From the NCBI GenBank assembly GCA_002683335.1, contig NYTE01000058.1, positions 22,675 to 60,846 on the forward strand: DNA of 38,172 nt, given 5' to 3'. The position numbers and the translations under genes were made by a program. Under the pieces are notes generated by a model. The model was not told the origin of the DNA, searched no databases, and saw only the letters and a program-made list of their open reading frames with translations. The DNA comes from Halieaceae bacterium. Its GTDB lineage: Bacteria; Pseudomonadota; Gammaproteobacteria; Pseudomonadales; Halieaceae. Positions 8,113-38,172 of the stretch are shown piece after piece. How positions within the stretch are numbered: position 1 is the stretch's first letter; every line of letters begins with the position of its first letter.

Positions 8113-9432
8113 ATGGCCCTGCCGGGTCAGATTGACCCGATACCGCCAGTGGAACAACTCAGCACCGATCAACGCTCCCCCTTCAGCCGTGGCTTGCAAC
8201 GCGAAACTAAGCGCGCCGCCGTGCTCTCCTGTGCAGCCAAACTTTTCAATACCAAGGGCGCCCGCTCCACCACATTAGCCGATGTTGCCAGTCGTCTTGG
8301 CTTGACCAAAACCAGCCTCTACTACTATGTGGCGACCAAAGAAGACCTGATTTACCAATGCTATGAGGCAAACGTTAGGCGAGCACATGCGCAGCTTGAT
8401 GCGGCGGAACAATTCAACGCCGCGCCACTCGAGTGCTTGTTACACTTCCTTGAAGGCCAGATTGCGACCACACTCAGATCACTCGATGGCGAGGGCGATT
8501 TTTATGCGGCACCCCTAGAGGTAGCATCGCTGGCCACCAAGCATCGCCAGGCATTGGAGGAGGAATACCGACGTTTACTGCGACGCCTTATTGACCTCAT
8601 GAATCAGGGGATGGCTCAAGGTGACATCAAGCCCTGTAATCCGGTGGTCACTATTCGCGCCATTCTGGGCGCGCTCGACTGGTCCTTCTATTGGCTCTAC
8701 GAAATGCCCCGGGAGGAGGCTTCCTCAGTCAGTGGTGTGCTGCGAGACCTTTTCAGTCATGGATTGCTGAATACAACTGGAACCTCACAAATAGGTGATC
8801 TCCCGAGTCTGGATGTGCTCGCCGCGGAAGAGGATGCCTTCGATCGCGACACTCAAAACCGTCTCAAGCAGGAAGCCTTTCTGAAGGCCGGCACTCGCTG
8901 CTTCAACCAGAAGGGCTTCAGTGGCACTTCACTCGACGAAATTGCAGAAACCCTGCAAGTCTCCAAAGGCGCCTTTTACTACCACTTTGCTAATAAGGAA
9001 GCGCTGCTGACACAGTGTTTTGACTACTCGCTGGACCAACTTGAGCGAGTGATGGCGAGCGTCGCATCGCTAGACGAGCCACCTTTTATACAACTTGAGG
9101 TCGCCTGTCGGCACATTTTTTCTCTGCAAAATTCAGATCAGGGACCGCTGGTACACTTCAACGCGATCACGTCCCTACCACCCGCCGTCAGGCAGCGACT
9201 ACTGGAGCGAGTGGGCGCAGTGCATGGCACACTCGAAGGCTTCATCGAAGATGCTATTCAGGAAAATCAATTTCGACCGGTGCCCGCCGGCATCGTGATT
9301 CAGCTACTGACAGGCGCACTGAATGCCGCGATGGATCTCGAAGAATGGCAATCAATTGAGTCTATTGAACACAGCGCCAGTGACTATTTTTCGGTTTTCT
9401 TCCATGGACTGAAGCTAACCCATTCACTGTAA
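8113..9432 (+). CDS. Tandem TetR-family regulator (two TetR units fused)
   Basis: A 439-residue protein, about twice the length of a normal TetR regulator. It contains two complete TetR DNA-binding domains, at about residues 34-81 (TTLADVASRLGLTKTSLYYY) and 253-301 (TSLDEIAETLQVSKGAFYYH). Each is followed by a roughly 150-residue helical ligand or dimerisation region. A normal TetR dimer has two headpieces, so this chain may form a pseudo-dimer or a four-headed dimer. The ATG at 8113 lies right against a palindrome, leaving AAGG too close to be a good ribosome site. A leaderless transcript or an in-frame GTG at 8149 are alternatives. tesB starts 13 nt downstream and is surely co-transcribed, suggesting control by an acyl-CoA or fatty-acid-type ligand (inference). 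Confidence 0.9.
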   Translation: MALPGQIDPIPPVEQLSTDQRSPFSRGLQRETKRAAVLSCAAKLFNTKGARSTTLADVASRLGLTKTSLYYYVATKEDLIYQCYEANVRRAHAQLDAAEQFNAAPLECLLHFLEGQIATTLRSLDGEGDFYAAPLEVASLATKHRQALEEEYRRLLRRLIDLMNQGMAQGDIKPCNPVVTIRAILGALDWSFYWLYEMPREEASSVSGVLRDLFSHGLLNTTGTSQIGDLPSLDVLAAEEDAFDRDTQNRLKQEAFLKAGTRCFNQKGFSGTSLDEIAETLQVSKGAFYYHFANKEALLTQCFDYSLDQLERVMASVASLDEPPFIQLEVACRHIFSLQNSDQGPLVHFNAITSLPPAVRQRLLERVGAVHGTLEGFIEDAIQENQFRPVPAGIVIQLLTGALNAAMDLEEWQSIESIEHSASDYFSVFFHGLKLTHSL

Positions 9433-22544: not shown

Positions 22545-23573
22545 CTAACGGGAGAGTGCTGCACTCAACATGCGGGCGGTCACATCCACAATTGGGATAA
22601 CACGCTCGTATGCCATTCGTGTCGGGCCTATCACTCCCAACACCCCGAGCGACTGGGTCCCTTGGGCATAGGGCGCCGTGATAACGCTAAAGTCGCCAAA
22701 AACATCGAAGCCTGCCTCTTCACCGATAAAGATCTGAATACCGTCTGCTCGAGAGCAGCGTTCCATGAGTTCCAGCAGGTCCCGCTTGCTCTCAAAGGCA
22801 TCAAAAAGTTCCCGCAGCTTCTGCATATCTTCCGGAGACGCCTGATTCAGCAAACTCGCTTCTCCCGCTAACACTACTCCGTCTGTTGTGTCGGCGTTGT
22901 CGATCGCCGCGCTGGCCAGCTCCAAAGCCGCCTCGAGATAGGCATCGATCCGCAAGCGCGCCTCGGACATCTCTCGAACAATCTGGCTTTTGACCTGCGA
23001 TAAATCACGCCCCGCGTAGCGTTGGTTAATTAGATCGGCGGCCGCTTTCAACTGCTCTTCTGTCATGGTGTGCTGCACTTGAATAATACGATTCTGTACT
23101 TCGCGCTCATTGATCACCATGATCACCAGCACCCGATCTCCAGACAGTGGCAAAAACTCGATCTGCCGCAGTTGACTGCTGGCAGGCTTGGGGACAGTAA
23201 CAATGCCAGTCTGATAGGTGATTTGAGCGAGCAAATTGGATGCTGACTGGACCAGTTCCCCTGCGCTCCGATTAGGGTCTAAACCCGCATTAAGTGCCGA
23301 CATGGCCCCCTGCTCAACAGGGCCCACCTGCAACAAGCTATTCACGAAAAATCGATATCCCTGGGCGGTAGGGACTCTCCCAGAGGAGGTATGGGGTGAC
23401 GATAAGTACCCGAGATCCTCGAGCTCCGCCATAATATTGCGAACCGTTGCGGCACTGACAGCGAGCCCGCTCTCGCACTGCAGGTTTTTCGACGCCACTG
23501 GCTGGCCTTCGCGGATATGTATTTCCACCAAAGTTTTCAGAATTGATGAGGCGCGAGACGAAAGGGCTTCCAA
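22545..23573 (-). CDS. hrcA: Heat-inducible transcription repressor HrcA
   Basis: HrcA represses class I heat-shock genes by binding CIRCE elements, with activity dependent on GroEL. The 342-residue protein has the N-terminal winged helix (about 1-75) with SAATVRNIMAELEDLGYL and SSPHTSSGRVPTAQGYRFFV, both family signatures, then the GAF-like dimerisation region and the C-terminal LGVLGVIGPTRMAYERVI. The start is TTG at 23573 with only a weak ribosome site. It heads the hrcA-grpE-dnaK-dnaJ cluster. HrcA is absent from E. coli but present in some other gammaproteobacteria. No full CIRCE was found here, so its target (often groESL) is probably elsewhere. Confidence 0.95.
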   Translation of the reverse strand: MEALSSRASSILKTLVEIHIREGQPVASKNLQCESGLAVSAATVRNIMAELEDLGYLSSPHTSSGRVPTAQGYRFFVNSLLQVGPVEQGAMSALNAGLDPNRSAGELVQSASNLLAQITYQTGIVTVPKPASSQLRQIEFLPLSGDRVLVIMVINEREVQNRIIQVQHTMTEEQLKAAADLINQRYAGRDLSQVKSQIVREMSEARLRIDAYLEAALELASAAIDNADTTDGVVLAGEASLLNQASPEDMQKLRELFDAFESKRDLLELMERCSRADGIQIFIGEEAGFDVFGDFSVITAPYAQGTQSLGVLGVIGPTRMAYERVIPIVDVTARMLSAALSR

Positions 23574-30371: not shown

Positions 30372-30830
30372 GATCTCACCTTTTATTTGCCGAACAGTTT
30401 GTCCTCGTAACATGCCTCAAGAGCGATGAGACGCTGCCCCTAGTCTATCTGAAGGTGGCATGGCTGAGGACGATCACTGTTGCTCGGCGTGGCGGCGCTG
30501 AGTACCGACAACCGCCCGCGCTGACCCAATACAACACATCTGGCCCCATCCAACTCTCCTGAGGCCTGAAACATGCGCCTTACAGTCCCCTCGGAACGGC
30601 AAGGCCGTTTTGATGAGCAGAAACAAGTGATCCAGATGGTAATAGTTGGCGTAACCCAGATGTCAGTGTCTTAGGACCGCTCAGCCAACGTGTTAGGGCG
30701 GCCGCTCTGGGGATGACTCTGTCGCTTCGGGCATGCCGTATCGCCGGAACAATAAAGGGTGCGCAACCGAAGGCGATCGGTATTTTTCCGGAGCTTTCGT
30801 GTCGGCGCCTTTCGATAGAGAGGAGGCGTT
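30372..30830. other. Long intergenic region upstream of pcs
   Basis: About 459 nt without a supported gene, between the divergent MOSC gene and pcs. It holds a small AACGGC-AAG-GCCGTT hairpin followed by four T (30595-30611). Nearer pcs there is an ACCGA/TCGGT stem followed by A and five T (30766-30787), which could be a weak attenuator in the pcs leader. AGGAGG at 30821-30826 is the pcs ribosome site. No convincing sigma-70 promoter could be picked by eye. Confidence 0.45.
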
Positions 30831-33800
30831 GTGACAAATCACGACGATAATTGGGGCATCTTGCAGTCCCAACAAGACGAAGACCACGCGCGTGCAAGCG
30901 CTGTTGCAGATCCCGCGGGCTATCACGCCAACATTGCCGCCCGAGAGCTACATTGGTTCAACGCCAGTGCAAGTCAGTGGCTGAGCCGCTGTGACGGAAC
31001 TTGGCGGGGATGGCACTCCCAGTCGGGCGAGCAATCTGAGGCGGACGCAGACTGGGCCCCCTGGACAACGCCGCTGGATGATACCGCCGCGCCTTTCTAT
31101 CGTTGGTTTGTTGATGGTCACACCAATGCCTGCTTTAACTTGCTTGATCGCCACGTGCTATCGGGAAGGGGTGAACAACAGGCACTGGTCTTTGAGGGCG
31201 ACCGCTGGGACCCCTCCAAGAACGGTGGTCGCGGAGGCCCTGTATTCGAGCAACGCCTGAGCTACCGGGAACTGCTCATCGAAGTCGCATTGCGCGCGCG
31301 TGTTCTCGATCGGCTAGGTTTGAGCTGTGGTGATCGAATTGCCTTGAACCTGCCTAACATTCTGGAACAGATTTACTACATTCTCGCGGCCCAGCGTCTC
31401 GGCGTGATCTATACGCCGGTGTTCGGCGGCTTTTCTGCTAAGACATTGTCTGACCGCATCCATGACGCGGGTGCCAAGGTCGTGATCACTGCAGATGGCG
31501 GCTACCGCAACGCCGAAGTCGTGCCTTATAAAAGCGCCTATGTGGATCCAGCACTGGACAATTACGTGCCCCGCCCCGCCGCATTAAAGGCACTTTCCGA
31601 AACCTTGCATGCGCGACTCCCTGCCGAGGTAGCGGCACGACTTGAAACACAGGTGACGGACGCGGTCGCTGGCGAGATCACACTGGAGCGCGCCGATGTC
31701 ATGCGCGAACTGGGCTTGGCACTTGAGCGAGAGCGCGATACCGCGCCAGAGATCATTGCCGAGCTTCGCACAACGGTCGCTAGCGAACTGGCAAACGTCG
31801 GTCATGCAGTCGAGCACGTGATTGTGGTTCGCTATACCGGTAACGACATCGTCGAGCATGGGCGCGACAGTTGGTCCCACCAAATCATTAGCGCGCTTGA
31901 AGCGGAGGTACTGGCAGATGCCGGCGTTGCCGACAGAGCGTCGCTCTATTCCTTGGGCGACTCAGCTTTCTGGCAGGCGGTTGGAGCCCACATTCCCGCC
32001 GTCCCGGTCGAGGCGAACTGGCCACTTTTCATCATCTACACCTCGGGCTCTACCGGCAAACCCAAAGGCGTCGTCCACACCCACGGCGGCTGGCTATCGG
32101 GTATTACGCACACCATGCGCACGGTCTTTAACGGCAATCAGGACGACTGCCTTTACGTAATCGGCGATCCGGGTTGGATTACAGGCCAGTCCTACCTTAT
32201 TGCGGCACCCCTGGCATTTGGTATGTCAACGGTGGTTGCCGAGGGCTCACCACTCTTCCCGCATGCGGGTCGGTTTGCCTCGATTATCGAGCGCAATCAG
32301 GTCACGCTGTTCAAGGCGGGCTCGACCTTCCTCAAGGCTGTGATGACTGATCCAGCCAGCTCGCAGGAAATGTCGCGCTACGATATGTCGACTTTGAAAG
32401 TGGGCACCTTCTGCGCCGAACCGGTATCGCCGGCGGTACAGAAATTTGCAATGGAGAACATCTGCTCGCATTACATCAACTCATATTGGGCCACTGAGCA
32501 TGGCGGCATTGTCTTCTCTTGTCCTTGGGGCGATTTCAAGCCCTTGGAGGCTGACGCCAAGACATGGCCGCTTCCGTGGGTGCAGGCCCAAGTTCGCATT
32601 GTTGAAGCAATAGGCGATGATGGCGCTGTGAGCCAGTGGCGCGAAGCCCAGGCCGGCGAGAAGGGAGAGCTGGTGATTACGCAGCCCTACCCTTATCTCG
32701 CGCGAACCCTATGGGGCGATGGCGATATGTTGGGTCAAGCGCACTGGCAGGGCGATATTGAGCGCTTCGGAGAGGTGTATTTCCGACGCTGGGCAGGTGA
32801 GCTTACCTATACCCAAGGGGATTATGCACGACGCGGAGAGGAGGGCGCCTTTACGCTACACGGTCGATCCGATGACGTGATCAACGTCTCGGGTCACCGC
32901 ATCGGGACAGAGGAAATCGAGGGCGCCATCCTGCGCGACAAAACGCTGCGACAGGATTCACCCGTAGGCAACGTGGTAGTAGTGGGCGCGCCCCACGATG
33001 AGAAAGGGGAAACCCCGATCGCCTTTCTCGTTGCAGCTGCCGGTAGAAAGCTCTCGGATGAGGATCTGAGCCGCTTACAAAATTTAGTGCGAACCGAAAA
33101 AGGCGCAACTGCAGTGCCCTCTGACTTTCTGGTGGTATCCGCTTTTCCCGAGACGCGCTCGGGCAAATACATGCGCCGCACATTGCGGGCCATTCTGCTG
33201 GATCAACCTCTGGGCGACCTGTCCACGCTCCGAAACCCGGAATCAGTCGAGGAAATTCAAGGCGCCGTGGCGCAATGGCGCGACTTTGGTCGCCTTGCCG
33301 AAGCACGCCAGATTATCCAGACTTGGCGCTACCTGCGAGTGGAAACCCATCGGATCGACGATCAACACAAGGTTGCACTGCTGGTGATCAATCATCCACC
33401 CGTCAACGCGCTTAATGAACGCACGCTGGATGAGTTACACACGGTGGTGCAACAACTCGAGCATCAAGACGATGTTGATGCCGTGGTGATTACGGGTGCA
33501 CGGGGTGCATTCGTTGCGGGCGCAGACGTCAAGGAGCTGCTGGAAGTCGGTGAAGCGGGAGACCTGGAATCTGCGCGCACCCCCCCCAATGCTGCGCAAG
33601 CCGCTTTCGCGGCGCTCGAGCAACTTGGCAAGCCTGTGATTGCGGCGGTAAACGGTCCGGCACTCGGCGGTGGTAACGAACTGGTTCTGGCCTGCTCCTA
33701 TGTCATTGCAGCCGAGCACGCACAGTTCGGCCAGCCAGAGATCAATCTCAACTTGCTACCCGGGTATGGTGGCACCCAGCGTCTGGTTCGTAAGCTGTAC

Positions 33801-36242
33801 CGCCGCAGAGGTGAAGAGGGCATGGCCGAAGCGCTGCGCCTCATGGTGAGCGGCCGCAACATCTCTACCGCCGAGGCACAGGCCTGTGGCCTGGTGGACG
33901 AAGTGGTAACAGAGGCCGGTGCGTCCCCTGTTGAAGTCGCCATGGAGCGGCTGCGCGCTTACTTTGACCAAGAAGGGCCCTTGTCTGCAGCGCAAGACGA
34001 GCATCATAAGGCGTTGGCTGATCGCGAGGCGGTAATCCCCTACTCCGAGGCCACTCTAGAGCACTCGGCACTGAATCAAGCACTGTCACAAATCCGCGCG
34101 AGCGGGCGAGACAAGCCTGTCAGCCGCGTGCTTGAGGCCGTTGCACTGGGCGCCACACAGGGTCAATCGGCCGGTCTGCTGCGCGAGGCGGAGCTGTTTG
34201 CTGAAGCGGTTTGTGACCCCCAATCCGGACCGACAGGTATTACCGCATTCCTCGAAAAACGCAGCGCACCCTTACCAACACGGTATACCGACGTTGCACC
34301 CGATGCGTCTGGTGAGCAGGTCGAAGCCTTGTTGTTGTCCGGGAAATTACTGCCCATGGGCGCAAGCTTCTTCCCCGGTGTGACGCCGATCCCCACCTAC
34401 CAATATGGCTATGGGGTACCTAAGTCACCGGTAGACGGTAAACCCGCCCACGGCGACCCTCAGGATGCCGAGATTAAACTGATCTTCAAAACACCTGACC
34501 CCGAACCTAACGAGGCGTTGGTTTACGTGCTCGCGTCAGAGATGAACTTCAACGACATCTGGGCCATCACCGGCATTCCGGTATCACCATTTGATGCGCG
34601 CGATGCCGATGTGCAAGTGACCGGTTCAGGTGGTGTGGCCATGATCGTGAGGCTGGGGAGCGAGCTTGTTGCGGAAGGCCGGCTGTCCGTCGGTGATATC
34701 TGCACCGTCTACTCGGGTCAAAGCGAGCTGCTCTCACCTGACCAAGGTCTGGACCCTATGGCGGCAGACTTTCGCATTCAGGGCTATGAACGCAACGACG
34801 GCAGCCATGCGCAGTTTCTGACCGTTCAGGGTCCTCAGCTACACCCAAAGCTACCTAGCCTTAGTTTTGAAGAGGCCGGGTCCTATGGGCTAACGCTGGG
34901 CACGATCCACCGCGCGCTCTATCACACGCTGGATATTGAGCCAAACAAGCGGCTCTTTGTCGAAGGCGCATCCACCGGTACGGGTTATGACTGCCTGCGC
35001 AGCGCGGTCAGCAGTGGTCTCAGTGTCGTCGGCATGGTCTCCAATACGGAGCGCGCTGCACGTGTAAAGGCCATAGGGGGCGCAGCGGTGGATCGAAAAG
35101 ATCCGCAGTGGGCCAACGCATTTACCCCGGTCCCCGATGACCCCGCTCAATGGGCTGCTTGGGAGCAAGATGGAGACAGTTTTGTCGCAGCAAGCGAAGC
35201 CGCTGCCGGAGGCAGCATTGATTACGTAGTTTCTCACGCTGGCGAGACAGCATTCCCGCGATCTTTCCAGACCCTTGGCGAAGGTGGAGTGCTCACCTTT
35301 TACGGCGCCTCCTCGGGCTACCGCTTTACCTTTATGGGCAAAAAAGGTAGCTCGAGCCCTGCAGAGATGTTCACGCGTGCGGGACTGCGTGCGGGACAAA
35401 GCCTGCTGGTGGTGTATGGGCCCGGAGCCGAAGATGGCATCGTGGATCGCGTCGCGATCGAGGCAATTGAAGTAGGCTGTCAGCGCGGCGCGCAAATCGC
35501 CGTTCTGGTCGACACAGTGCCGCAGCGCGAGTTTGTGAACTCTCTGGGCTTTGGTGCTCAGGTGAAAGGGGTCGTGAGTCTCGAAGAAATTGAGCGCCGC
35601 TTGGGTGATGACTACGACCCACCCGGCCCCTTTGCGGAAATGCCCAATCCGTTTACTGAATCGCAGGCCTTCAAAGAGGCCGTGCGACTATTCTCGGATC
35701 GCACACTCAAGCCGATTGGTTCGGCAATAGCGCCATTCCTTCGCAACACACTCGACAAGCGGGGTTTGCCAGATGTGGTCTTCGAGCGCGCCGGCCGAGA
35801 TGGCCTCGCACTAGCAACCTCTTTGGTGAAACCGAATGTCGGCAAGGTGGTCTACTCGGAAGAGCTCAGTGGCAACCGCTTCACCTTTTATGCGCCGCAG
35901 GTGTGGATGCGCCAGCGTCGCATTCTGATGCCCAGCGCCGAGATTCGTGGCACGCACTTAAACACCGCTCGAGAGTTCGCCGAGATGCAACAGCGAATCG
36001 CTGCGGCTCAAATTGACGTCTTGCCACCGTTGGCACGACCCATTGAAGACATTGCCGAGATTCATCAGGCGATGTGGGAAAATCGGCACGGCGGTGCCAA
36101 TTATGTCGTGACCCATGCACTCCCCCGCATGGGCCTTAAAACCAAGGATGAACTATACCGGGCTTGGGCGCTGCGTGATGCAGCGGAGCGCGGCGAAGTC
36201 ATCGCTAAAGTTGAAACAGGATCAGCCGGAGCGCTCAGATGA
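30831..36242 (+). CDS. pcs: Propionyl-CoA synthase (trifunctional)
   Basis: A 1803-residue fusion that converts 3-hydroxypropionate, ATP, CoA and NADPH to propionyl-CoA in one protein; the Chloroflexus enzyme is about 1822 residues. Domain 1 (about 40-810) is an acyl-CoA synthetase with TSGSTGKPKG at 404-413 and the catalytic Lys779 in TRSGKYMRR. Domain 2 (about 830-1130) is an enoyl-CoA hydratase keeping both catalytic Glu, E950 (GGGNE) and E970 (QPEINLNLLPGYGGTQRL), 20 apart as in the family. Domain 3 (about 1180-1803) is a medium-chain reductase of the crotonyl-CoA reductase type with GASTGTG at 1379-1385. A charged helical insert (about 230-330) in domain 1 fits known Pcs proteins. The start is GTG at 30831, four nt after AGGAGG. 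It overlaps mcr by 4 nt. Confidence 0.95.
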   Translation: MTNHDDNWGILQSQQDEDHARASAVADPAGYHANIAARELHWFNASASQWLSRCDGTWRGWHSQSGEQSEADADWAPWTTPLDDTAAPFYRWFVDGHTNACFNLLDRHVLSGRGEQQALVFEGDRWDPSKNGGRGGPVFEQRLSYRELLIEVALRARVLDRLGLSCGDRIALNLPNILEQIYYILAAQRLGVIYTPVFGGFSAKTLSDRIHDAGAKVVITADGGYRNAEVVPYKSAYVDPALDNYVPRPAALKALSETLHARLPAEVAARLETQVTDAVAGEITLERADVMRELGLALERERDTAPEIIAELRTTVASELANVGHAVEHVIVVRYTGNDIVEHGRDSWSHQIISALEAEVLADAGVADRASLYSLGDSAFWQAVGAHIPAVPVEANWPLFIIYTSGSTGKPKGVVHTHGGWLSGITHTMRTVFNGNQDDCLYVIGDPGWITGQSYLIAAPLAFGMSTVVAEGSPLFPHAGRFASIIERNQVTLFKAGSTFLKAVMTDPASSQEMSRYDMSTLKVGTFCAEPVSPAVQKFAMENICSHYINSYWATEHGGIVFSCPWGDFKPLEADAKTWPLPWVQAQVRIVEAIGDDGAVSQWREAQAGEKGELVITQPYPYLARTLWGDGDMLGQAHWQGDIERFGEVYFRRWAGELTYTQGDYARRGEEGAFTLHGRSDDVINVSGHRIGTEEIEGAILRDKTLRQDSPVGNVVVVGAPHDEKGETPIAFLVAAAGRKLSDEDLSRLQNLVRTEKGATAVPSDFLVVSAFPETRSGKYMRRTLRAILLDQPLGDLSTLRNPESVEEIQGAVAQWRDFGRLAEARQIIQTWRYLRVETHRIDDQHKVALLVINHPPVNALNERTLDELHTVVQQLEHQDDVDAVVITGARGAFVAGADVKELLEVGEAGDLESARTPPNAAQAAFAALEQLGKPVIAAVNGPALGGGNELVLACSYVIAAEHAQFGQPEINLNLLPGYGGTQRLVRKLYRRRGEEGMAEALRLMVSGRNISTAEAQACGLVDEVVTEAGASPVEVAMERLRAYFDQEGPLSAAQDEHHKALADREAVIPYSEATLEHSALNQALSQIRASGRDKPVSRVLEAVALGATQGQSAGLLREAELFAEAVCDPQSGPTGITAFLEKRSAPLPTRYTDVAPDASGEQVEALLLSGKLLPMGASFFPGVTPIPTYQYGYGVPKSPVDGKPAHGDPQDAEIKLIFKTPDPEPNEALVYVLASEMNFNDIWAITGIPVSPFDARDADVQVTGSGGVAMIVRLGSELVAEGRLSVGDICTVYSGQSELLSPDQGLDPMAADFRIQGYERNDGSHAQFLTVQGPQLHPKLPSLSFEEAGSYGLTLGTIHRALYHTLDIEPNKRLFVEGASTGTGYDCLRSAVSSGLSVVGMVSNTERAARVKAIGGAAVDRKDPQWANAFTPVPDDPAQWAAWEQDGDSFVAASEAAAGGSIDYVVSHAGETAFPRSFQTLGEGGVLTFYGASSGYRFTFMGKKGSSSPAEMFTRAGLRAGQSLLVVYGPGAEDGIVDRVAIEAIEVGCQRGAQIAVLVDTVPQREFVNSLGFGAQVKGVVSLEEIERRLGDDYDPPGPFAEMPNPFTESQAFKEAVRLFSDRTLKPIGSAIAPFLRNTLDKRGLPDVVFERAGRDGLALATSLVKPNVGKVVYSEELSGNRFTFYAPQVWMRQRRILMPSAEIRGTHLNTAREFAEMQQRIAAAQIDVLPPLARPIEDIAEIHQAMWENRHGGANYVVTHALPRMGLKTKDELYRAWALRDAAERGEVIAKVETGSAGALR

Positions 36243-38172
36243 ACGACATGTCCGATCTTTCCAATGCAGTTGTCTCGCAGTCTCTGACAGGTCGGCGACT
36301 CGAGAATAAATCAGTCATCCTGACGGGTGCCGCGGGGTCGATTGGCCGCTACATTTCTCGTCACCTCCTCCGGGAAGGCGCCATGGTCACGATGACTGGC
36401 CGTGACCAGAGCAAACTGGATGCCTTTGTTGAGGAGCTCTCTGAGGAGGGATTTGATGCGGACAACATCTCGACGATCGTGGGTGACTGTGCGGACCCGC
36501 AGGTGTGCCGTGATATCGTGGATCAAGCGGTGGGTGCCTTCAGCAAGCTCGATGTGCTGGTGAATAATGCCGGCGCGGCGGGGCCCAAGTACACCCTGCG
36601 AGATATTCCCTTTACCGATGTGGAAATGCGCGCGGCCGGCTCTGATCAAACCATGTTCGATTCGGCCATGAATTTGCTGGGCGCACCCTGGAATATGGCT
36701 CGCGCTGCTGCAGCGCATTTGACTGACGGCGGTACGATCGTCAACGTTTCTACCATCTTCTCGCGCACACACTATTACGGACGTATTCCTTACGTAGTGC
36801 CAAAGTCAGGATTGAACGCGTTGGGTAAGGGCCTTGCGCTGGAGCTCGGCGACGAGCGCGGTATCCGGGTCAATACCCTGTTCCCAGGACCCATTGAGTC
36901 AGAGCGCATCGATACCGTTTTTGCAACCATGGATGAGCTGCAAAATATTCCGCCCGGTAGCACCAGTCAGGAATTCCGTGATCTGATGATTACGACGCGC
37001 AAGACCGAGGATGGCCTAGATTACCGTTACCCCACGCCAACTGACGTCGCCAATGGCATTGTTTGGCTGGCATCGGAGGAATCAGCGGCGGTATCGGGCC
37101 ACCACATTGAAGTGACTAACGGTATGCAGGTTCCTGCGCAGAGCCGATCACAACTGGTGTCATGGCCCGATAAACGTCTTGAAGACCTGACAGATCACGT
37201 GGTACTGATTCTGGGCGGCTCTGACTATGAAGAGGCACTGACCTATGCCGAGCGGCATATAAAAAGCGGCGCCCACGTGTTACTGGCGTTCCGATCCCTC
37301 GAATCTGTCGGCCACGCGCGCTCATTGATTCAAAGCAAAGGTCTCGATGAAATTCAGCTTTCTCACCTTGACCCGCTACGCCGTGAGTCGGTTGATCGCA
37401 CTATGCAGTTCATCGACGATCACTTTGGTCGACTCGACGGCGTCATTGTGCTGCCGCGCAAGCCTAACGGTCATTATGGATACGCTCTTTGCAGTGCGAC
37501 CGACGAGGATGTTGAAAACTTTGTCCGCGAAGAAGTGGTCGCGCCTGTCGCGTTTGCCAGCATGTTTGCCACCAATATGTCACGCTGGTTCGGCAAATGT
37601 GATCCCCCCGCCATCACCTACGCAACCAATGGTAGTGACACCCATGGCAACCTGCTGAATGAAGTCATTCGCGCCTCTATTGAAGCCTTAATTCGTGGCT
37701 GGAGACATGAAGACGAAACGCTGCAAACCGCGGGTGAGCTAGAGTGGGCTGTGCGGCCCAATCAGTTGGTGCGATATGACAGTGAAGATAAGGACAACCT
37801 GACTTTTGCTGCCGACTGGGCGGCAACGCTAACCAACCGCGTTCGGCAGATGGACCCCATCAATCTGTGGATCCCTAAAAGCATCAAGCGAGCGACGGGC
37901 AAAGAATCGATGCCCACCCCGCTGATGCGAGTGTTACCCGGGTTACACAAAGGTAAAACCGCCGTCATCACCGGCGGAAGTTTGGGTATCGGACTTCAAC
38001 TTGGTCGCTATCTTGCCATTGCCGGTTGCCGGGTGCTGCTGAGCGCCCGGAGTGCTGCCAAATTAGAGGAAGCACGCAGCGAGATTGTCGAAGAACTTCG
38101 CGGCATTGGGTATCCGCAAGCGGACACCCGTGTCAGCATCTTGGCAGACATAGATGTGGGCGACCCCAAGGC
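36239..38172 (+). CDS. mcr: Malonyl-CoA reductase, bifunctional (partial, 3' end outside window)
   Basis: An open frame from ATG 36239 to the window end: 644 codons with no stop. The first SDR unit (about 20-295) has TGAAGSIG at 29-36, NNAG at 109-112, S171 and Y185-V-V-P-K189. A degenerate Rossmann unit follows (from about 318, VVLILGGSDYEEA). A second SDR begins with TAVITGGSLGIG at about 574-585 and is cut off. This matches Chloroflexus Mcr (about 1219 residues), whose N-half reduces malonate semialdehyde to 3-hydroxypropionate and whose C-half reduces malonyl-CoA to the semialdehyde. The start overlaps the pcs stop (ATGA), with GGAG seven nt upstream. Only the N-half and about 75 residues of the C-half are visible. 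Confidence 0.92.
   Translation, partial: MNDMSDLSNAVVSQSLTGRRLENKSVILTGAAGSIGRYISRHLLREGAMVTMTGRDQSKLDAFVEELSEEGFDADNISTIVGDCADPQVCRDIVDQAVGAFSKLDVLVNNAGAAGPKYTLRDIPFTDVEMRAAGSDQTMFDSAMNLLGAPWNMARAAAAHLTDGGTIVNVSTIFSRTHYYGRIPYVVPKSGLNALGKGLALELGDERGIRVNTLFPGPIESERIDTVFATMDELQNIPPGSTSQEFRDLMITTRKTEDGLDYRYPTPTDVANGIVWLASEESAAVSGHHIEVTNGMQVPAQSRSQLVSWPDKRLEDLTDHVVLILGGSDYEEALTYAERHIKSGAHVLLAFRSLESVGHARSLIQSKGLDEIQLSHLDPLRRESVDRTMQFIDDHFGRLDGVIVLPRKPNGHYGYALCSATDEDVENFVREEVVAPVAFASMFATNMSRWFGKCDPPAITYATNGSDTHGNLLNEVIRASIEALIRGWRHEDETLQTAGELEWAVRPNQLVRYDSEDKDNLTFAADWAATLTNRVRQMDPINLWIPKSIKRATGKESMPTPLMRVLPGLHKGKTAVITGGSLGIGLQLGRYLAIAGCRVLLSARSAAKLEEARSEIVEELRGIGYPQADTRVSILADIDVGDPK

Follow-up and report, generated by a model that had tools for sequence, protein, structure and literature searches.

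In surface waters, aerobic anoxygenic phototrophs are common; they are generally regarded as heterotrophs for which light does no more than spare respiration. A 2013 study on Luminiphilus syltensis and two of its relatives stated that, in obligately aerobic anoxygenic photoheterotrophs, genes that could balance redox through CO2 or nitrogen fixation had not been detected (PMC3666943). The genes for trifunctional propionyl-CoA synthase (pcs) and bifunctional malonyl-CoA reductase (mcr) have already been published from Alpha- and Gammaproteobacteria, and such carbon-fixation genes from Luminiphilus (PMC9802188; PMC10674011). Key enzymes of the 3-hydroxypropionate (3HP) bicycle are reported for Porphyrobacter ULC335, in which the bicycle genes are up by day, and CO2 co-assimilation has been proposed for this strain and for Erythrobacter NAP1 (PMC10674011). 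Here we describe a pcs-mcr operon, found in a window of 38,172 nucleotides from a Halieaceae bacterium (positions 22,675 to 60,846 of contig NYTE01000058.1). In our numbering, where G, C and L mark genomes, contigs and loci, the window is G000:C43:22675-60846; the contig extends to 65214. The host is a metagenome-assembled genome (MAG) of 2.24 Mb in 65 contigs, 74% complete, which appears to be a Luminiphilus-type member of Halieaceae; a gammaproteobacterial host had been named in a preliminary description of this DNA, which had also rightly called the genes not new.

The pair probably serves an open-ended route from acetyl-CoA and two CO2 to succinyl-CoA, for light-assisted co-assimilation and NADPH disposal, rather than closed autotrophy. 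More tentatively, pcs and mcr, joined in some lineages by carboxylase genes, may be a mobile and dedicated CO2-assimilating, NADPH-consuming module of aerobic anoxygenic phototrophs, spread over at least four phyla and two Pcs/Mcr clades, mostly in genomes with a type-2 reaction centre, unlinked to it, and giving the redox balance said to be lacking. The two genes are, in the same genus, Luminiphilus, candidates for redox balancing.

The operon and the rest of the proposed route

Pcs converts 3-hydroxypropionate into propionyl-CoA. Its gene runs from 30831 to 36242 on the forward strand, where all features given below also lie, starts with GTG and encodes 1803 amino acids; the intergenic stretch 5' of it (30414..30830) contains a Shine-Dalgarno-like GAGGAGG, and the GTG at 30831 is preceded by GAGAGGAGG. 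CoA ligase, enoyl-CoA hydratase and enoyl-CoA reductase are fused in one chain of about 1800 residues, and PDB chain 6eqo matches residues 18-1783 with 1876 bits. The CoA-ligase part (31248..33167), matched also by acetyl-CoA synthetases, comprises the domains AMP-binding (residues 140-619) and AMP-binding_C (709-779). In the hydratase part (ECH, residues 845-1045; 33363..33965) the motifs GGGNE and GQPE keep both crotonase glutamates, presumably with the role known from crotonases; the reductase part (residues 1207-1501; 34449..35333), in the MDR-reductase region, matches crotonyl-CoA carboxylase/reductase. The MAG has one copy of pcs, the next-best matches being far weaker (200 bits, in the CoA-ligase part). 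Two acetyl-CoA-synthetase-like copies (G000:C20:38480-40255 and G000:C40:2424-4199) lie on two contigs of the MAG and have equal scores over the longer stretch; they may be either a duplication or a binning artefact.

The stop of pcs and the ATG start of mcr overlap by four nucleotides (ATGA, 36239..36242): the arrangement is that of a two-gene operon, predicted to be translationally coupled. The first 644 amino acids of Mcr are encoded in the window (36239..38172). The frame remains open, with no stop, to G000:C43:62566 (L003:9062), for a total of 1217 amino acids; nine codons are unreadable because of ambiguous bases, eight of them at or just beyond the window end. Residues 17-1217 match PDB chains 8hi4 (1010 bits) and 8hjw (949 bits). 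Mcr is thus composed of two SDR halves: the N-terminal SDR domain covers residues 24-226 (36308..36916), while the C-terminal half, which we take to be the malonyl-CoA-reducing one, begins at residue 566 (37934..38172 in the window). The pairs Y185/K189 and Y737/K741, presumably the SDR active-site pattern, are invariant across eight aligned Halieaceae Mcr. The gene identities, the overlap with its coupling and the intact motifs of the preliminary description are borne out, and the remainder of mcr past 38172 shows neither an early stop nor loss of the C-terminal active site.

Among 140 Halieaceae genomes, pcs is found in 56 and mcr in 47. As 46 of the 47 mcr-positive genomes gave pcs too (the exception, G088, is a fragment at a contig end), Mcr implies Pcs. 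In all 37 Halieaceae rows with both genes (29 genomes) the pcs stop lies within ATGA; 28 of these genomes have the mcr match in the same frame, and G063 does not. The nearest relative is G080, with a Pcs 97% identical. Both genes are under purifying selection: dN/dS is 0.02-0.05 over seven comparisons with relatives (four pcs, three mcr), dS being near saturation in three of the four pcs comparisons, all but that with G080. A truncated or decayed mcr is ruled out by this low ratio and by the open 1217-codon frame. In another relative, G111 (C18:6977-16042), both genes are broken up and the final piece of mcr contains two in-frame TGA, through either decay or an assembly error.

The pairwise distances among Pcs follow those among Mcr (r = 0.94 for 41 taxa without L091; 0 of 999 permutations), indicating that the pair travels together. 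Its surroundings differ between subclades: in 14 Halieaceae neighbourhoods, two of them pcs-only, no gene besides pcs and mcr recurs past close relatives, except for one gene common to G062 and G059. The operon therefore looks like a self-contained unit that moved.

In the proposed route, acetyl-CoA carboxylase would stand upstream of the pair, while propionyl-CoA carboxylase, epimerase and methylmalonyl-CoA mutase would lead downstream to succinyl-CoA. In the same MAG accA (L170:265-1212) and accD (L171:87-1031) are present, above NCBIfam cut-offs, and contig C52 has a gene run (L163:3388-11462) that begins with a carboxyltransferase of 573 aa and a biotin carboxylase/carrier of 939 aa. These two match NCBIfam models below cut-off and, from their operon position, are probably a propionyl-CoA carboxylase; the biotin carboxylase/carrier subunit (L163:5134-7953) matches known models weakly. 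The other genes of the run, for methylmalonyl-CoA epimerase, methylmalonyl-CoA mutase and MeaB, also pass their cut-offs. In each of the eight genomes compared, the mutase has a carboxyltransferase no more than about 5 kb away, so the use of propionyl-CoA seems to be a trait of the family, and pcs-mcr feeds into it.

Acetyl-CoA-carboxylase-type genes adjoin pcs-mcr in 10 out of 42 loci (10 out of 32 outside Halieaceae) and are the most recurrent neighbours of the pair, which argues for a carbon flow from acetyl-CoA to propionyl-CoA. In seven loci (L089, L093, L114, L120, L121, L134, L142) the neighbour is an accA above cut-off, accompanied in L121 and L134 by accC; in L080, L109 and L132 it is a fused biotin-dependent carboxylase, whose substrate is unproved. 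accA is found 3' of mcr in five Sphingomonadales, accA and accC flank mcr-pcs in two Roseiflexus-type Chloroflexota, and the fused gene occurs in Rhodopila, Phenylobacterium and one Pseudomonadales MAG.

Enzyme activities, flux direction and light dependence are, in what follows, predictions from sequence. Mcr would reduce malonyl-CoA to 3-hydroxypropionate with two NADPH, and Pcs would turn the latter into propionyl-CoA, splitting ATP to AMP and using one NADPH; acetyl-CoA carboxylase and propionyl-CoA carboxylase each cost one further ATP. Light-driven ATP and surplus reductant would make the route affordable, and its role would be CO2 co-assimilation with organic substrates, together with that of an electron sink for surplus NADPH during phototrophy. 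If so, CO2 addition to acetyl-CoA and NADPH use would let light raise carbon yield directly. Of the three options in the preliminary description, mixotrophic assimilation or reductant disposal is the best supported, by the carboxylase genes, the operon and the co-occurrence with reaction-centre genes.

Occurrence together with reaction-centre genes

Reaction-centre genes (PF00124) are present in 53 of the 140 Halieaceae genomes. The five genera with mcr all fall within the six with a reaction centre, out of 28 Halieaceae genera (Fisher p = 6e-5). Outside the genus of the host, four of the five mcr genomes have a reaction centre, versus 5 out of 78 without mcr; within it, 17 of 17 genomes at least 90% complete have one. 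Neither reaction-centre nor rhodopsin genes were found in the host MAG (74% complete): given these better congeners, the negative is probably due to incompleteness, and the organism itself may be phototrophic.

For a wider comparison the best 80 of 179 Pcs relatives were taken. Type-2 reaction-centre genes occur in 42 of the 50 named genomes that have pcs and, going by their record titles, lie outside Halieaceae: in 30 of the 32 with adjacent mcr, in four out of four cut by contig ends, in seven out of seven Chloroflexota with no mcr seen in the flanks, and in only one of seven with a lone pcs outside Chloroflexota. Adjacency was judged within flanks of up to 6 kb, shorter in L084 and L085 (at most 1.1 kb upstream) and L146 (about 2 kb downstream). 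The genome of L126, a Longimicrobiales MAG (G176), has two reaction-centre gene pairs on two contigs, indicating either two sets or a mixed bin.

Linkage does not explain the co-occurrence, since in single-contig genomes the two gene sets lie at least 0.2 Mb apart (about 0.2 Mb in G058 and G060, about 1.5 Mb in G112). A general physical linkage is thereby ruled out, although the distance is shorter in G062 (one contig, about 34 kb) and G013 (about 125 kb). Rhodopsin was rejected as the light partner, being present in only 2 of the 57 genomes of the genus; G094 (C3:20224-20874 and C12) has both rhodopsin and reaction-centre genes, as has G095, where the rhodopsin frame contains three stops. Co-regulation with photosynthesis genes through sites of the form TGTN12ACA, which we take to be of PpsR type, is unsupported: no such site is found in the 400 bases 5' of pcs, and the upstream stretches of relatives show no excess.

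In the genus itself, L. syltensis is reported to show light-enhanced growth on malate-containing medium and control of pigments by redox state (PMC3666943). No report of a co-occurrence of pcs-mcr and reaction centres across phyla was recognised in the literature searched, which left subscription journals mostly outside. The breadth of this association is the new part of the present work, and it makes the open question on light and CO2 in these bacteria testable.

Several observations weigh against the role proposed here, some of them at the level of the counts themselves. Genomes of relatives do not count as independent, the Pcs tree yielded just 2-4 independent contrasts, a test with no power (p = 1), and the lone-pcs group consists of few lineages. 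In the subclade of the host, nine genomes have a reaction centre and seven (54-87% complete) do not; this subclade comprises 16 genomes, with 88% Pcs identity over the longest piece as the lower limit (excluded is G079, where one of two Pcs pieces is at 82%; a reaction centre is present there, a PF03241 match is not). Pairs without a reaction centre occur in L091, whose Mcr is divergent, in L113 and in G040 (86% complete); a reaction centre without the pair in G086 (96% complete), G007, G037, G038 and G012; a lone pcs with a reaction centre in L075 and G012. TGTN12ACA gave 8 matches versus 8.8 expected in 111 upstream stretches, some genomes being counted twice and three of the eight matches lying in the stretch of L147, which was mis-cut at 10650 bases. 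None of the ten Halieaceae loci has carboxylase genes beside the pair. The route is not needed for growth on acetate, since an isocitrate lyase is present and aceK lies inside the window; the lyase is matched in 128 of the 140 family genomes, including this MAG, where the NCBIfam cut-off is passed, and a replacement of the glyoxylate shunt by pcs-mcr is excluded accordingly. Finally, on pyruvate L. syltensis is reported to have no light-dependent gain in yield (PMC3666943).

The first of the alternatives, an unlikely one, is that the co-occurrence reflects shared habitat or ancestry without functional coupling, pcs-mcr serving general propionyl-CoA supply; it is compatible with the route itself. 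The lack of power of the contrasts speaks in its favour, as does the composition of the Halieaceae-type clade, spread over three phyla and known outside Halieaceae mostly from the MAGs of one survey. It fits less well with the absence of mcr from all 22 Halieaceae genera without a reaction centre, considering that 18 genomes in six of these genera carry rhodopsin, and are presumably light-exposed, nor does it account for the lone pcs genes, which show no association with reaction centres.

Possible other uses of Pcs and possible closed cycles

An unlikely alternative to the open-ended route is that Pcs assimilates 3-hydroxypropionate, acrylate or carbon of a similar kind, such as that released when dimethylsulfoniopropionate is broken down, with Mcr in a minor or different use and no role for CO2. 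Genomes with pcs and no mcr do exist. Two of them are G012, a single contig, and G025, which is 99% complete; within the flanks examined, the same holds for Dasania, one MAG each of Cellvibrionales and Alphaproteobacteria, and four Bacillota. Such a use, listed among the options of the preliminary description as Pcs acting alone, suits G012, G025 and Dasania better than the present host, where mcr is retained, coupled and conserved; the carboxylase genes recurring beside the pair also argue against it. A separate Pcs clade with no mcr in the flanks (L063, L073, L074, L075: Halieaceae G025, Cellvibrionales-type, one alphaproteobacterial) is possibly an enzyme for assimilation of 3-hydroxypropionate or acrylate.

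Highly improbable is a full autotrophic 3-hydroxypropionate/4-hydroxybutyrate (3HP/4HB) cycle of the kind that Garritano and others (2022, PMC9802188) put forward for eight MAGs of Luminiphilus. According to that report, Mcr and Pcs belong to the first half of the cycle and 4-hydroxybutyryl-CoA dehydratase to the second, and RuBisCO is absent from Luminiphilus. Besides the published claim, the cycle is favoured by the presence of a true-type dehydratase in 13 of the 57 genomes of the genus, all 13 mcr-positive. PF03241 matches in the genus split into two score classes: the true type scores about 240 bits, has the motifs CFQRC and YHRxSYVC, keeps the cluster ligands and matches 6vjr and 1u8v (read in the sequences of G058, G060 and G070, by score in the other ten). 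No dehydratase of this type, with its 4Fe-4S ligands, was found in the 16 genomes of the host subclade: eight have PF03241 matches, all of the lower-scoring type, and the host MAG, 74% complete, has none. Aligned to 1u8v, the lower-scoring type has two of the four cluster ligands replaced, at the positions that we take to be those of the 4Fe-4S cluster; this was read in G066 and G105 of the subclade and in G059 and G077 outside it, the other six subclade genomes with matches being assigned by score (G075 from fragments). Moreover, the single-contig G112 carries pcs-mcr without a PF03241 match, and the true type is also found where pcs is lacking (G001 from its sequence, G003-G005 from their scores). 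The pair is therefore kept where, per these genomes, the cycle cannot run, which argues against extending the published claim to the host subclade, and thus against an autotrophic 3HP/4HB reading of pcs-mcr in at least one subclade.

The proteins of G066, G105, G059 and G077 (L053-L055, L057) appear as an HpaB-family relative of 4-hydroxybutyryl-CoA dehydratase which has lost two of four cluster ligands; in G059 and G062 this relative lies about 5 kb from a single-domain PF19315-matching gene.

A complete 3HP bicycle as in Chloroflexus, closed via glyoxylate assimilation (mch, mct, meh, mcl), is scarcely credible, even though mcr, pcs, accA, accD, the genes of propionyl-CoA carboxylase type, epimerase and mutase are all in the MAG, together with a match above cut-off to PF19315 (mesaconyl-CoA hydratase). 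This match, in a 162-aa protein, spans half the model and is the sole sign of a mesaconyl-CoA (2-methylfumaryl-CoA) hydratase in a MAG 74% complete, from a model that is weakly selective: its cut-off was passed by 12 of 19 genomes, and it gave only 33 bits in the two Chloroflexus genomes (open reading frames of 370 and 373 aa). The protein scores 198 bits to RipB/Ich versus 93 to 2-methylfumaryl-CoA hydratase, both below cut-off, and the single-contig G058 has no PF19315 match. In addition, none of six canonical pathways is described as complete in six Halieaceae isolates, for three of which a reductive glycine pathway is proposed (PMC10100682). Of the "half of the bicycle" named in the preliminary description the pcs-mcr half stands; as evidence of a bicycle it does not, since the only PF19315 protein is nearer to RipB/Ich. 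The 162-aa protein itself (L173:593-1081, G000:C29) resembles the itaconyl/(R)-enoyl-CoA hydratase RipB/Ich without reaching the cut-off of that family, which points to possible genes for an itaconate-type degradation.

Clades, neighbouring genes and known systems

The pairs span Pseudomonadota, Gemmatimonadota, Myxococcota and Chloroflexota, with two deep Pcs clades; the quick trees gave long-branch warnings, L091 foremost. The Halieaceae-type Pcs/Mcr clade includes Pseudomonadota, Gemmatimonadota and Myxococcota. Its Mcr members at 59-64% identity come from Woeseiaceae, Lysobacterales, Longimicrobiales, Myxococcota and one Pseudomonadales MAG. A further caveat on the association is that eight of the nine non-Halieaceae rows of the Pcs clade are MAGs with isolate codes PL/IP, from one survey, so that mis-binning is possible.

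Other genes near the pair were recorded. The gene 3' of mcr (L003:9198-10445) encodes a 415-aa Vgb-lyase-like propeller with a haem-binding-like motif, CSTCH, near the N-terminus. In Lysobacterales and Woeseiaceae MAGs a metallo-beta-lactamase-fold gene, typed in two of three cases, lies directly 5' of pcs (L099:4876-5904, L100:4821-5786, L117:76-909). Elsewhere in the window, at 8113-9432, a 439-aa open reading frame has two TetR-type HTH domains, an unusual fused regulator.

Among known systems, the Pcs of Erythrobacter sp. NAP1, which we take to be the source of 6eqo, has the same three fused parts over the full length. The Erythrobacteraceae enzymes nevertheless form a separate clade, at 51-53% identity to the Pcs described here, and their mcr begins about 100 nt after pcs, followed in L114 and L142 by accA, whereas here the genes overlap by four nucleotides and accA is elsewhere. 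The bifunctional Mcr of 8hi4, 8hjw and 6k8s/6k8v, presumably from Chloroflexota and Erythrobacteraceae, share the full-length architecture of two SDR halves and the Tyr/Lys pairs; Mcr of the Chloroflexota/Sphingomonadales type are 40-45% identical to the present one. Porphyrobacter ULC335 and Erythrobacter NAP1, with a partial 3HP bicycle, are similar in being phototrophs with key enzymes and no full carbon-fixation pathway; they are, unlike the host, Alphaproteobacteria, and day-time up-regulation was measured there (PMC10674011). A further parallel is offered by the Luminiphilus MAGs with a proposed 3HP/4HB cycle: they differ in that the true-type dehydratase belongs to other genomes of the genus than those of the host subclade, and agree with the host in the genus and in the same enzymes from acetyl-CoA to succinyl-CoA (PMC9802188).

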